This document shows, piece by piece, positions 27,011 to 60,180 of a stretch of 64,000 nucleotides of DNA. The notes under the pieces are model-generated. The model saw nothing but the letters and a program-made list of their open reading frames with translations. It had not been told where the DNA came from and made no database searches. The translations under genes were made by a program, and so were the position numbers. The stretch spans positions 310,001-374,000 of the forward strand of contig JAIQFP010000001.1 of NCBI GenBank assembly GCA_020073165.1. Direction: 5' to 3'. The stretch's first letter is position 1. Each line of letters starts with the position of its first letter. Source of the stretch: Terriglobia bacterium (GTDB taxonomy: Bacteria > Acidobacteriota > Terriglobia > Terriglobales > Acidobacteriaceae).

Positions 27011-27083
27011 GGCTAGTCTCCTCGTTTTGCACTACGGCTTCCGAATGAAAAGGTTACCAGTGCTTGAAGAATTACGCTCAGCT

Positions 27084-27147
27084 GCGGGGGCGGGACGCCC
27101 CCGCCCTTCGGCTTCGCTCAGGGCAAGCTGGCCGGCGGGACGCCGGC
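27084..27147. repeat. Stack of short palindromes downstream of epoxide hydrolase
   Basis: Three adjoining elements: an 8-bp-stem hairpin GCGGGGGC...GCCCCCGC (27084-27104), a CCCTTCG-x5-CGCTCAGGG element (27103-27124), and GCCGGC-N5-GCCGGC (27131-27147). Similar pieces occur elsewhere in the window (48698, 56451), so this is a dispersed repeat cluster, possibly serving as a terminator. Confidence 0.55.
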
Positions 27148-27166
27148 GCTACGAGTTACATCGGCG

Positions 27167-48589: not shown

Positions 48590-48697
48590 TACCGGGCTTG
48601 GCCTTGGGAAATCGCGCTGCAGCCGGGACCAGCTCCCGGTTCACAGTGGTCCGGCTTCTCCTCTTGCAGATTGCGATCTTTGCGGTGGCCAGCGCGA

Positions 48698-48717
48698 CCC
48701 TTCGACTGCGCTCAGGG
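48698..48717. repeat. Short dispersed CTTCG-CGCTCAGG element
   Basis: CCCTTCGACTGCGCTCAGGG, with CCCT/AGGG ends able to pair. It resembles 27105-27123 and the core of the GIY-YIG-flanking repeat (58753, 59258). The rest of the 48466-48784 spacer shows no gene. Confidence 0.45.
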
Positions 48718-48784
48718 CAGGCTCTGGCGCTGCTGCCTGGTTTATAATCATCAATTCTGCCGTATATCCTGGAGTGACAAGAAG

Positions 48785-57505: not shown

Positions 57506-57949
57506 CTATTTTCCCGCCGCCGCCCGAAATGCCGTGAGGTACTTCTGCGGCATCGGCGTGATCTTCATCTCGTGATCGATCACGATGTGCGTGGTCTCAC
57601 CCTCGGCCAGCAACGTGCCATCCTCCGCTCGCACCAGTTCGTAAGCAAAATGTATTAAGGACTCGCGAATATTCTTTAAGTGCGTGCGCACAATGATCTC
57701 TTCGTCGTAGCGCGCTGGGACCTTGTAGCGGCAGCGGGCGTCCACTACGGCGATGTGGCAGCCGTCGTCGCGTTCCATCTCCTTGTACGTGAACCCCAGC
57801 TGGCGCAGCAATTCTACGCGCCCGACTTCGAACCAGATGAAATGATTGGAATGATAGACGACACCCATCTGGTCGGTCTCGGCGTAGCGCACGCGCAGGC
57901 GGGTTTCGCAGACCACAGGATGTCCGTTGGCGGTCACTTTCCGCTCCAT
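57506..57949 (-). CDS. Hotdog-fold acyl-CoA thioesterase (YbgC/4HBT family)
   Basis: 147 residues. RYAETDQMGVVYHSNHFIWF contains the family Asp (D26) and conserved N-H-F context of 4-hydroxybenzoyl-CoA thioesterase-like enzymes. It hydrolyses acyl-CoA thioesters. The start overlaps the end of the upstream enoyl-CoA hydratase by 16 bp, so the two are translated together; hutH follows 59 bp later. Substrate probably a CoA intermediate of this operon. Confidence 0.85.
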   Translation of the reverse strand: MERKVTANGHPVVCETRLRVRYAETDQMGVVYHSNHFIWFEVGRVELLRQLGFTYKEMERDDGCHIAVVDARCRYKVPARYDEEIIVRTHLKNIRESLIHFAYELVRAEDGTLLAEGETTHIVIDHEMKITPMPQKYLTAFRAAAGK

Positions 57950-58716
57950 TGCGGCTTGCGTTTTTCCAGGAATGACGAGATGCCCTCGCGGAAATCGGCT
58001 GTGGTGCGGATGCGGGCGTTGTCTTCGACGGCCGTGGCGATCTGCTCGTCGAGCTGGCCGGCGATGAAACTGTTGATCAGCTTCTTGGTGGCGCGAACCG
58101 AGGAGGGGCTGTTCTCAAGAATCTGGGCGGCCAGTTGGCGCGCGCGCGTCATAAGTTGGTCCGCCGGGACCACTTCGTTGACCAGCCCATAGCGATGGGC
58201 TTCGGCAGCATCGAAAAGCCGTCCAGTGAGGAGCAGGTCGCGGGCAATCTTGTGCCCCACTTGCCAGACCAGGATCGAAGAAACGATGGCGGGGACGAAT
58301 CCGATGCGTACCTCGGTGTATCCGAACTTGGCTTCGGGGACGGCGAGGGTGAAGTCGCACATGGTGGCCAGACCGGTGCCGCCGGCGATGGCAGCGCCGT
58401 TCACAGCGGCAATGGTGGCTCGAGGAAATTCATAAAGCCGGCGGAAGATGCGCGCCATGCGCGTGGAATCCTGCACGTTTTCATCGTGCGTTTTCCCCAG
58501 CAATGACTTCAGTTCATCCAAATCCAGGCCGGCGCAGAAAGCCTTGCCCGCGCCGGTGAGGATCGCAACTTGCGCCGGCGAGCGCTCGATCTCGTCCAGC
58601 GCTGCGAGGAGTTCGTCCAGCAGTTGGAAGCTGATGGCGTTGCGCTTGTCGGGGCGGTTGAGGGTGATGGTGGCGACCCCGGCGTTGAAGGCGAGTTGGA
58701 GAGTTTGGCAGGTCAT
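57934..58716 (-). CDS. Enoyl-CoA hydratase/isomerase family protein (methylglutaconyl-CoA hydratase-like)
   Basis: 260 residues from ATG 58716 (GGTAGAG upstream). Crotonase marks: TLNRPDKRNAIS, oxyanion-hole stretches FCAGLDLDEL and AAVNGAAIAGGTGLA, and the region around FGYTEVRIGFVPA with the usual catalytic Glu position. Next to HMG-CoA lyase and an acyl-CoA carboxylase it may be the methylglutaconyl-CoA hydratase of leucine breakdown; that is inference. The reading frame continues upstream without a stop through a repeat into the GIY-YIG gene, so a 393-residue fusion could also be made. Confidence 0.85.
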   Translation of the reverse strand: MTCQTLQLAFNAGVATITLNRPDKRNAISFQLLDELLAALDEIERSPAQVAILTGAGKAFCAGLDLDELKSLLGKTHDENVQDSTRMARIFRRLYEFPRATIAAVNGAAIAGGTGLATMCDFTLAVPEAKFGYTEVRIGFVPAIVSSILVWQVGHKIARDLLLTGRLFDAAEAHRYGLVNEVVPADQLMTRARQLAAQILENSPSSVRATKKLINSFIAGQLDEQIATAVEDNARIRTTADFREGISSFLEKRKPQWSGK

Positions 58717-59115
58717 TTTGTCTCTACCAACAGGGTTGTCATCACTAACAACTTTGTCATCCTGAGCGAAGCGAAGGACCTGCTTGTTGTCGGTGCCACC
58801 CAATATTGTGGGCGTGAGCGGCTTGATCGCGCCGTACCAGTCTTCACTCAAGTCCTCCCAAGTGGGATTTTGCGATTCGATCAGTGCGACTTTCTTCCGG
58901 CGCAGCCATCCCTTAATCGTCTTTTCTCTCGCAATCGCATTCCCCACATATTGGAAAGATTCAAAGTATACAAGGCGGTGCACCCGGTAGTCGCTGGTGA
59001 AGCCTGGAAACATGTCGTGCCTGTGCTCCCACACCCGGCGATGAATGTTGTTGGTAACTCCGGTGTACAAGACCCGCGACTTGCTCGCCATCATGTAAAC
59101 GTAGAAGTGGCGCAT
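58717..59115 (-). CDS. GIY-YIG nuclease-like gene, open into the downstream enoyl-CoA hydratase
   Basis: 133 codons before the hydratase ATG, with no stop of its own. Residues 1-95 are a GIY-YIG domain of the small YhbQ/UPF0213-like kind: YVY (5-7) and YTG (17-19) for the two Tyr motifs, Arg26/27 and the EKTIKGW block (64-70), then LIESQNPTWEDLSEDW. Residues about 111-120 (KQVLRFAQDD) are encoded by a dispersed repeat. A perfect 33-bp inverted repeat brackets the gene (58753 and 59258) and a diverged copy lies just upstream (59121). Such nucleases cut or nick DNA; here it looks like part of a mobile unit inserted into the operon. Confidence 0.7.
58753..58785 (-). repeat. Left copy of 33-bp inverted repeat flanking the GIY-YIG gene
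   Basis: Read on the minus strand it begins AAGCAGGTCCTTCG and ends CAGGATGACAAA. It is the exact reverse complement of 59258-59290. It lies inside the open frame and encodes KQVLRFAQDDK. Confidence 0.85.
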
Positions 59116-59120
59116 GCAGA

Positions 59121-59162
59121 AAGCAGTTCCTTCCCCTTCGCTTCGCTCGGGTCAGGATGACA
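59121..59162 (+). repeat. Diverged copy of the GIY-YIG-associated repeat
   Basis: Starts AAGCAGTTCCTTCC and ends GTCAGGATGACAA, with several substitutions and a few extra bases relative to the 33-bp repeat, same orientation as 59258. It abuts the GIY-YIG start codon. Confidence 0.65.
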
Positions 59163-59257
59163 ACGTCTACATGAGAAATGAGATTCATGTGGAAGTCTGT
59201 GCCGGTCGTCACAGCAAGAATTCTGATGCTCCGCAAGCACTCAAACGCTACATAGGA

Positions 59258-59290
59258 AAGCAGGTCCTTCGCTTCGCTCAGGATGACAAA
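59258..59290 (+). repeat. Right copy of 33-bp inverted repeat flanking the GIY-YIG gene
   Basis: Perfect inverted partner of 58753-58785 over 33 bp. It ends 11 bp from the 3' end of the HMG-CoA lyase gene. About 470 bp lie between the two copies. Confidence 0.85.
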
Positions 59291-59301
59291 TCGGTATGGT
59301 G

Positions 59302-60180
59302 TCAGTCCGCCGCTGACGAATTCGTATACCTCGCCCCGATCTCCGTGGTCACCCGCAGCAGGATGTCCAGCGGTTTGAGCGGCGGCAATGCTGCGCCACG
59401 CTGCTGTAAGGCTTCAATCACCCTCTCCGTCGGGATGTTTCCCACCAGCGCATCCTGCGCGAACGGGCAACCGCCCAGCCCCCCCAGCGCCGAATCAAAG
59501 CGCCGGCACCCGGCGTCGTAGGCCGCCAGAATCTTTTCAACTGCCTGGTCGGGACGGCTGTGCAGGTGCACTCCAATTTCGAGGTACTCGTATTTTGCCA
59601 GCACGGCGGAAACCAATTCGCGAATCTGCTCCGGCCCGGCCAGCCCCACGGTGTCGGCCAGCGAAATCATCTTGATGCCGGAAGACTCCAGCAGATCGAC
59701 TGCGTCCACCACCTCACCAGCGTTCCAGGGATCTCCGTAGGGATTGCCAAATGCCATGGAAATGTAGACCACCACACTCAATCCCGCTTCGTCGGCTCTC
59801 TTTTCGATCTTCTCCAATTCCTCGATGGCTTCTTCCAGCGTCTGGTGCTGGTTGTTACGCAGAAAGGTCGGCGAAACCGAATAAGGGAATCCCAGCGTGC
59901 GGACAGCTTGCGTGTTGATCGCCCGCTGCGCGCCTTTTTCATTGACCACGATGCCGATGATCTCAACATCATCGGGAGGATCAAGTTCTTTGAGCACGTC
60001 TTCGGAATCCGCCATCTGTGGGACGGCTTTGGGCGAGACGAATGAGGCCGCATCAATGTGCTTGAACCCCGCACTGATCAAGGCTTTCAGGTAGTCCACC
60101 TTGATGTAGGTAGGGACCTGCCCCTTGAGCCCTTGCCAGGCATCGCGAGGACACTCGATCAGTTTGACGGAGTCAGGCAT
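59302..60180 (-). CDS. Hydroxymethylglutaryl-CoA lyase
   Basis: 292 residues from ATG 60180; the longer frame to 60240 only adds codons from an inverted repeat. HMGL-like TIM barrel: LIECPRDAWQG supplies the metal/substrate Glu-Arg-Asp set, GVHLHSRPDQ the metal His pair, and GGLGGCPFA the catalytic Cys loop. Splits HMG-CoA into acetoacetate and acetyl-CoA, last step of leucine catabolism. Upstream neighbour is a carboxylase beta subunit; downstream the GIY-YIG unit separates it from enoyl-CoA hydratase. Confidence 0.9.
   Translation of the reverse strand: MPDSVKLIECPRDAWQGLKGQVPTYIKVDYLKALISAGFKHIDAASFVSPKAVPQMADSEDVLKELDPPDDVEIIGIVVNEKGAQRAINTQAVRTLGFPYSVSPTFLRNNQHQTLEEAIEELEKIEKRADEAGLSVVVYISMAFGNPYGDPWNAGEVVDAVDLLESSGIKMISLADTVGLAGPEQIRELVSAVLAKYEYLEIGVHLHSRPDQAVEKILAAYDAGCRRFDSALGGLGGCPFAQDALVGNIPTERVIEALQQRGAALPPLKPLDILLRVTTEIGARYTNSSAAD

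Follow-up and report, generated by a model that had tools for sequence, protein, structure and literature searches.

A row of four minus-strand genes in the 64,000-nucleotide window analyzed here (the window being the whole stretch of DNA, from a Terriglobia bacterium) raises the question of why a small GIY-YIG nuclease gene enclosed by inverted repeats is found between the genes of an HMGL-like lyase and an enoyl-CoA hydratase, the latter followed by a thioesterase gene (Table 1). A sequence-only reading of the locus had proposed a minimal mobile unit made of a nuclease and its repeats. The exact 33-bp inverted repeat on which this proposal was built was confirmed: the two arms are 33 nt long and 100% complementary, are separated by a spacer of 472 nt, and enclose a small gene with a PF01541 match. 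With up to 3 mismatches allowed, the window contains two matches to the repeat core, GTCATCCTGAGCGAAGCGAAGGA, compared with none in 100 shuffles. A copy described as third and diverged is real and located at the nuclease start, but it is not decayed: the hairpin is complete, belongs to the same kind and differs in its longer apex. The supposed relatives near positions 27105 and 48698 turned out to have only an inner CTGAGCG..GAAGG-like core in common with the repeat; they lack the GTCAT tag and the tail and were therefore left out of the repeat counts. These short hairpins (window positions 27070-27160 and 48660-48760) are possibly distant relatives or unrelated palindromes.

Table 1. Features of the nuclease locus, with positions in the window
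Feature	Position	Strand	Remarks
HMGL-like gene (HMG-CoA lyase type, PF00682)	59302-60180	-	upstream; adjoins the hydratase gene in relatives without the unit
Upstream terminal repeat, type A	59258-59290	-	TGTC tag; hairpin core 59265-59287; tail CCTGCTT
Third repeat	59121-59162	-	adjoins the nuclease start codon; same hairpin base (core 59128-59161), longer apex, tail ACTGCTT
GIY-YIG nuclease, 98 aa	58822-59115	-	no stop codon of its own; compact single-domain fold predicted
Downstream terminal repeat	58753-58785	+	inverted relative to the upstream copy; translated in the nuclease frame as ..KQVLRFAQDDK..
Enoyl-CoA hydratase (PF00378)	57934-58716	-	in frame with the nuclease, no stop between them
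Thioesterase (PF13279)	57506-57949	-	downstream; conserved neighbor, used for the local tree

GIY-YIG enzymes are hydrolytic nucleases in which two tyrosines, a glycine, an arginine and a glutamate have catalytic roles. In Pfam, GIY-YIG was the sole match of the bracketed gene (PF01541, E = 4e-12, 46.7 bits, curated cut-off 22.6), and no HUH/Y1 transposase (RAYT) match was obtained. The window protein keeps all five residues, and each is highly conserved across 60 nucleases (Y7 in 57/60, Y17 in 58/60, G19 in 57/60, R27 in 59/60, E64 in 60/60). An AlphaFold model of the 98-aa protein, built on a 26-row alignment, had a mean pLDDT of 92.4. The closest solved structure, by sequence as well as by fold, was the UPF0213 protein BH0048 (PDB 1zg2; Foldseek E = 1.3e-4), and the second Foldseek match was the branched-DNA nuclease Slx1 (E = 0.017).

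In the 4.6 Mb of the own genome, the 23-mer core was found in 28 copies at up to 3 mismatches, compared with none for the reversed control. PF01541 gave five matches in this genome, one of them inside a 614-aa frame that was judged UvrC-like by its length alone and left out, which leaves four small GIY-YIG genes. Six of the 28 repeat copies lie within 1 kb of these four genes, where 0.054 would be expected (P = 3e-11), so that the clustering which the sequence-only reading had suggested looking for exists in the own genome. Repeats spread without regard to GIY-YIG genes had been named as a counterargument; by density this does not hold, but 22 of the 28 copies are located away from such genes. 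Most copies fall into three tail subtypes, A (GTC...GGACCTGCTT), B (GGC-GTC...GGA(C/T)C..GCGCGC) and C (CCTAGGT), and copies of these subtypes flank the nuclease genes in the window, on contig C8 and on contig C2, respectively: three nuclease/repeat pairs in one genome. The fourth small GIY-YIG gene, on contig C6, has a hairpin upstream only. In the type-B nuclease on C8 (L035), a valine replaces the conserved YIG glycine (G19); judged by this substitution the enzyme may therefore be impaired, although type-B copies exist elsewhere in the own genome.

The gene-distant copies are what would be expected if abundant passive REP hairpins, for instance terminators, had come to lie beside a small mobile gene by coincidence, and the available part of a 2013 survey describes REPs as mostly intergenic (PMC3733652). 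Such a coincidence is extremely improbable in view of the clustering in the own genome, of unit-specific tails matched on the two sides, for which permutation already disfavors it, and of the recurrence of this arrangement in several phyla whose repeat sequences differ (see below for both).

Using a profile of 17 proteins, we detected the nuclease in 33 of 61 genomes, counting the own genome, at 1 to 8 matches per genome. One weak match came from the 14 genomes of the sister family f2, and a sample of the phylum had the nuclease in 21 of 197 genomes at E = 1e-20; matches above the stated E-value limits were excluded from the counts. A set of 60 genes was obtained from 71 gene rows by removing those below 85 bits and the two rows of a duplicate locus (L150) and adding three genes of the own genome, and it spans 29 of the 33 genomes with a match. 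Sequence identity indicates that locus L051 very probably belongs to the same genome as G001; the nucleases of both are identical and therefore do not represent two independent cases.

A motif scan covered 69 gene rows within about 350 bp of the gene, with segments from 26 unit-free loci as controls. Among the 51 rows with at least 95 bits, the motif was present upstream in forward orientation in 43, downstream in reverse orientation in 44, and on both sides in 40, and the 18 weaker rows had it upstream in 9, downstream in 8 and on both sides in 5. Control segments contained the upstream-type motif in 2/257 and the downstream-type motif in 1/257 cases. Motifs in the "wrong" orientation were likewise more frequent near the gene than in the controls (14/51 and 24/51). 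By a stricter motif rule, 56 of the 60 genes (29 genomes) are flanked by a hairpin, 42 of them on both sides; distal control segments of the same loci carry the strict motif in 7/121 and 4/121 cases and are thus not motif-free. A best-inverted-repeat score that takes no account of the sequence was at least 20 for 31 of the 60 genes and for 15 genes of a 22-locus hold-out (newly taken from 38 listed matches), compared with 0/204 control windows. The strict motif was found in this hold-out upstream of 14, downstream of 10 and on both sides of 9 of the 22 genes (distal control segments, 4/44 and 2/44), and several hold-out genes have strong inverted repeats that it does not cover. The pairing of the nuclease with inverted repeats is neither due to chance nor local to the window, and the link first proposed from this one locus extends genome-wide and across phyla.

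In structure, the repeat is a REP-like hairpin tagged with CGTC or TGTC; changes in its stem are compensatory, its apex is variable, and its tail is unit-specific and common to both sides. It is built of a GTC tag, a base stem of 4-5 bp (ATCCT/AGGAT and compensated variants), a tandem GA/GA, a self-pairing apex, and a tail, which is mostly ACC/ATC. Since the predicted stability of the short type-A hairpin alone is unremarkable (z = 0.24), a covariation test was taken as evidence instead. In this test, GTCANNNNGA anchors were located in the flanks without presupposing any pairing, and GA followed by the exact complement of NNNN was sought within 84 nt. A perfect stem complement after GA was present for 116 of 150 anchors, compared with a mean of 32 and a maximum of 52 in 5000 arm shuffles. 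This was true of 50/52 TCCT/AGGA, 35/43 TCCC/GGGA, 12/13 TTCT/AGAA, 9/10 TTCC/GGAA and 5/5 TGCT/AGCA arms, and rarer arms were mixed. The apex between the two GA steps comprises 5 to 63 nt (median 21), and many genes have unlike apices on their two sides; among the 70 apices of at least 12 nt, the median folding z score was -2.3, with 63% below -1.5. An unusually stable fold was predicted for a gene-less dimer (z = -5.6).

Within a unit, the 10-nt tails of the two sides agree at 8.0 of 10 positions, compared with 4.3 after permutation (42 units; 0/10000), and this matching also holds inside genomes with several units (0/10000 permutations). Nuclease similarity and tail similarity are correlated (rho = 0.25; 0/2000 permutations), with 7.2/10 matching tail positions in the top similarity class and 3.7 in the lowest. 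Shared ancestry may inflate this overall correlation, and among pairs inside one genome the trend was not significant (51 pairs, P = 0.075). An exception is G020, which has type-A tails, yet its nuclease lies outside the type-A clade.

The type-A 30-mer is present in 9 of the 61 genomes, with up to 39 copies. Four of the five genomes with type-A or A-like tails (G000, G001, G029, G020, G004) contain the type-A repeat versus 5 of the 56 others (P = 0.001), and three of the five versus 3/56 have at least three copies (P = 0.005); this association is partly circular because the unit's own flanks are counted. By family, the repeat pattern occurs in 20/23 f1 genomes and 0/14 f2 genomes, and within f1 the repeat number did not differ significantly between the 17 genomes with and the 6 without the nuclease (Mann-Whitney P = 0.20). 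Two genomes without a detected nuclease, G011 and G002, have 23 and 12 pattern matches, respectively. G011 is 99% complete and has 14 matches of the type-A 30-mer; its copies are possibly orphan repeats left after loss of the nuclease. Arrays of near-identical hairpins were also noticed, one with a spacing of about 87 bp beside a nuclease gene (G016, contig C47, near 86698-87733) and one with a spacing of about 65 bp (G019, contig C6, 6765-7102).

As the sequence-only reading had assumed, the lyase and hydratase genes are otherwise adjacent: 0-191 bp separate them in 22 of 26 unit-free loci of relatives. The junction is occupied in 4 of 30 hydratase loci (own genome, G001, G029 and G004), each time together with repeats, and in the remaining 26 no nuclease was found there. 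The expected empty sites thus exist. The case that would have spoken against the proposal, a repeat-free nuclease gene conserved here in distant relatives, was not seen. None of the 22 short empty junctions contains the tag-stem word, which is also absent from two loci with larger gaps of 1058 and 434 bp (L112 and L114), and no lyase was detected at L103 and L123.

Gene and repeats are therefore present or absent together at this junction, which argues against a homing-like course of events, namely that repeats came first and the nuclease gene entered pre-existing inverted dimers by cutting gene-free repeat alleles. Gene-less inverted dimers of near-constant spacing would suit this course (two in the own genome, both with a 32-bp gap, and four in G029, 47-48 bp from start to start), as would the GIY-YIG fold, known from homing nucleases; overall, we regard it as unlikely.

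The four junction nucleases group in a single clade (94/85), and their divergence keeps pace with that of their neighbors, the nuclease/hydratase identities to the own genome being 91/93, 72/67 and 68/59%. The local gene tree scatters the four genomes and requires 3 changes, of which the starred branches force 2; many of its forks are weak. Because the four nucleases fall into one clade, the insertion at this site is old or recurrent and not a fresh jump: the alternatives are many losses of a single old insertion, repeated filling of the site, or movement of the block via recombination.

At nine of the 69 loci scanned, the unit lies beside an enoyl-CoA hydratase gene. This observation was set aside, since the junction of the window accounts for four of the nine and one further locus for three, which leaves four distinct loci. 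In three relatives (L074, L147 and L156), a nuclease or its remnant lies at one common locus near a different enoyl-CoA hydratase, with a match strength declining from full (G028) to a fragment (G024).

Outside the junction, similar nucleases were found in flanks without detectable protein similarity, including the same-genome pairs G028c/G028g and G032a/G032b; G000c and G001b share a common locus. The congeneric genome G001, in which the flanks are 89-90% identical, cleanly lacks one of the two dimers of the own genome, and the regions of the other dimer and of one solo copy are missing as well, less cleanly. In the genus of G112, the flanking blocks are about 65-104 bp apart in G187 and G101 versus about 970 bp, including the unit, in G112. 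The same site holds some 770-790 bp of other sequence in G272 and G233, a nuclease in G263, and a nuclease match between the same flanks in G250. The 45-bp terminal repeat of the G112 unit has at least 8 further matches in G112 and at least one match each in G261 and G259, i.e., in at least 2 of 30 congeners, as counted from the 9 candidate stretches scored per genome in 31 genomes.

These distributions bear on a reading in which the unit benefits its host. A resident Ssn-type nuclease would trim incoming or replicating single-stranded DNA at the repeats, for example tuning transformation or recombination; the flanking copies would be regulatory or terminator sites, and spread would occur by ordinary horizontal transfer and by homologous recombination between repeats, with no mobility driven by the nuclease. 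The link between nuclease and repeat is common to this reading and to the dispersing unit that we favor, and the two differ on what drives the spread. Long residence would lead one to expect what the window locus offers, with one nuclease clade in four genomes, the identities given above and an in-frame run into the hydratase retained in three of them, and the Ssn nuclease of Neisseria reportedly affects transformation. A patchy distribution among relatives and in the phylum is more like that of a dispersing element. Similar paralogues at unrelated loci of one genome point in the same direction, as does an inverted dimer without a gene that only one of two congeneric genomes has between flanks that are well conserved. 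We therefore consider the host-benefit reading a serious but distinctly doubtful alternative.

Target-site duplications, a further sign of mobility to be looked for, were not found in 42 units (longest shared word in 12-nt flanks, 2.86 versus 2.99 permuted). Of the originally proposed mobile unit, the dispersal of nuclease and repeats is likely, given the empty sites and dispersed copies, whereas the duplications of a classical insertion are missing. A single-gene unit bounded by inverted repeats with conserved (T/C)|GTC ends (T or C precedes GTC in 94 of 98 unit repeats) does bring to mind IS-like transposition, in which the GIY-YIG protein would be a transposase proper and carry out strand transfer. 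We judge this very unlikely, as target duplication is absent, GIY-YIG enzymes are hydrolytic, and gene-distant repeat copies are the majority in the own genome. A movement of the repeats driven by the nuclease is plausible but inferred.

The nuclease frame has no stop and continues through the downstream repeat into the hydratase, giving an ORF of 393 aa (57934-59115, minus strand). It is continuous in the own genome, G001 and G029, where the linkers differ in length and keep the frame, and in G004 a stop lies ahead of the hydratase. In G030, a nuclease shares one frame with another hydratase-family domain. As read from the sequence, possible fusions of the nuclease to metabolic enzymes via a repeat-encoded linker are thus represented by the window ORF and by loci L068, L066 and L085.

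Among 14 loci from public genomes, for which there was no control set, an inverted repeat with a score of at least 15 brackets the gene in 10. The loci span Acidobacteriota, Chloroflexi, Planctomycetota, Bacteroidota and Deltaproteobacteria, and the repeat sequence varies by lineage. At L058 the repeat scores 15 and the top-scoring pair is another sequence, L055 has hairpins of the same type with a score of only 10, and no inverted repeat was found at L054, L062 and L064, each of which is cut by a contig end on one side. A plasmid collection contained 34 records with a homologue, 14 of which were read, and 7 of these 14 have GTC-tagged inverted hairpins with a score of at least 24 (Neisseria, Azospirillum, Novosphingobium, Aeromonas, Shinella, Neorhizobium and Sphingobium). 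Similar hairpins, with alike tails on both sides, occur in the Planktothrix record. In Sinorhizobium meliloti and Methylobacterium other inverted sequences surround the gene, the S. meliloti palindrome being without a GTC-tagged hairpin, and in Spirosoma, Photobacterium, Rhizobium tumorigenes and Sphingomonas flanking repeats were weak, one-sided or not found. In a viral collection, 12 of 18 contigs scored at least 19. The Azospirillum unit is located between sufB and sufC, and the Sphingomonas nuclease gene, which has no visible repeats, between rnc and era. On the Planktothrix agardhii plasmid (L193, 1501-1785), the nuclease gene lies between genes for an MmeI-type restriction enzyme and DISARM drmA.

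We conclude that the unit is probably a minimal site-specific GIY-YIG nuclease gene between inverted copies of its own putative recognition repeat. The best reading of the data is an Ssn-like nuclease and its cognate repeats dispersing together over evolutionary time, which suggests that the nuclease recognizes, and may spread, its own repeat. It would recognize the hairpin in single-stranded DNA, as formed during replication, repair or DNA uptake, and nick the hairpin base. Cutting and host repair might then copy gene-less dimers and, rarely, a gene-carrying dimer into new places, in a REPIN/RAYT-like life cycle that we put forward more cautiously. A hydrolytic nuclease would thereby stand in the place of RAYT's tyrosine transposase. 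In the window, the unit would have entered between the lyase and hydratase genes, and its downstream repeat would have become the in-frame linker to the hydratase.

A broader proposal, tentative and somewhat short of an even chance, is that GIY-YIG nucleases are the missing partner of the whole CGTC-tagged REP superfamily and that, independently and as a second solution, they arrived at a life cycle of the REPIN/RAYT kind. A hydrolytic nuclease would read a tagged single-strand hairpin and a short tail, orthogonal pairs would diversify per genome and spread by nick and repair, and units inserted into operons could be fused in frame to host enzymes via the repeat linker. Tag, base stem and tail amount to a directly testable enzyme-repeat code and, if cleavage proves true, to sets of orthogonal single-strand-specific nucleases. 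The unit would also account for the repeat class that is translated as ..LRFAQDD.. or ..ILSEAKDL.. in the window and is common in predicted proteins of soil bacteria. CGTC-tagged REPs, listed without a mobility enzyme in the available part of the 2013 survey (PMC3733652), are here tied to a small nuclease in several phyla.

As a kind, the combination of nuclease and repeat is probably already known. The homologue of Neisseria gonorrhoeae, 40.9% identical to the window nuclease over 94% of the query, is flanked by inverted CGTCATTCCC hairpins, and we take it to be Ssn. This fits what is said of Ssn, reportedly described in Nature Communications in 2025 as a GIY-YIG family with thousands of homologues, whose members cleave single-stranded DNA at a repeat of which Neisseria has many copies. 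The window nuclease resembles it as a small single-domain GIY-YIG protein whose gene is flanked by inverted repeat copies, and its cognate repeat is found beside the gene as well as elsewhere in the genome, both in the own genome and in relatives. Unlike in Ssn, the repeats of the Acidobacteriota combine a short base stem and tandem GA/GA with an apex that varies freely and a tail specific to each unit. A single genome can contain several different nuclease/repeat pairs, and single-strand cleavage is here a predicted property.

The available part of the 2013 survey groups CGTC-tagged REPs as being without a dedicated transposase and names them in A. lipoferum, N. aromaticivorans, Neisseriae and S. 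meliloti; no mention of GIY-YIG was found in that part (PMC3733652). The GIY-YIG genes of A. lipoferum, N. aromaticivorans and Neisseria have GTC-tagged inverted hairpins on both sides, and for S. meliloti a tagged hairpin around its GIY-YIG gene is not shown. As far as that part of the survey describes them, CGTC REPs share with our repeats the CGTC/TGTC tag, AT at the stem base, inverted (HH) dimers and dispersed copies (PMC3733652). They differ in their stem of 8-9 bp, loop of 4-5 nt and CCA tail, as opposed to the 4-5 bp base stem, GA/GA, variable apex and A(C/T)C tail found here, and in that our repeat is tied to a nuclease gene.

The analogy with REP/RAYT elements drawn by the sequence-only reading fits with respect to inverted dimers and dispersed copies. 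Short hairpins, a bracketed gene and gene-less dispersed inverted dimers are common to both systems, which differ in a GIY-YIG protein instead of an HUH/Y1 tyrosine transposase and a CGTC/TGTC instead of a GTAG tag. REPIN/RAYT systems are the subject of PMC2817692 and PMC3116915. Unlike insertion sequences, units of the window type are without target-site duplication. Among the papers listed in literature searches, no title or abstract opening connected GIY-YIG genes with repeats of the REP type. The acidobacterial variant may be new, with its short GA/GA base, free apex and unit-specific tail, and so may the several pairs per genome, the data on presence and absence, and the explicit connection to CGTC REPs as orphans.
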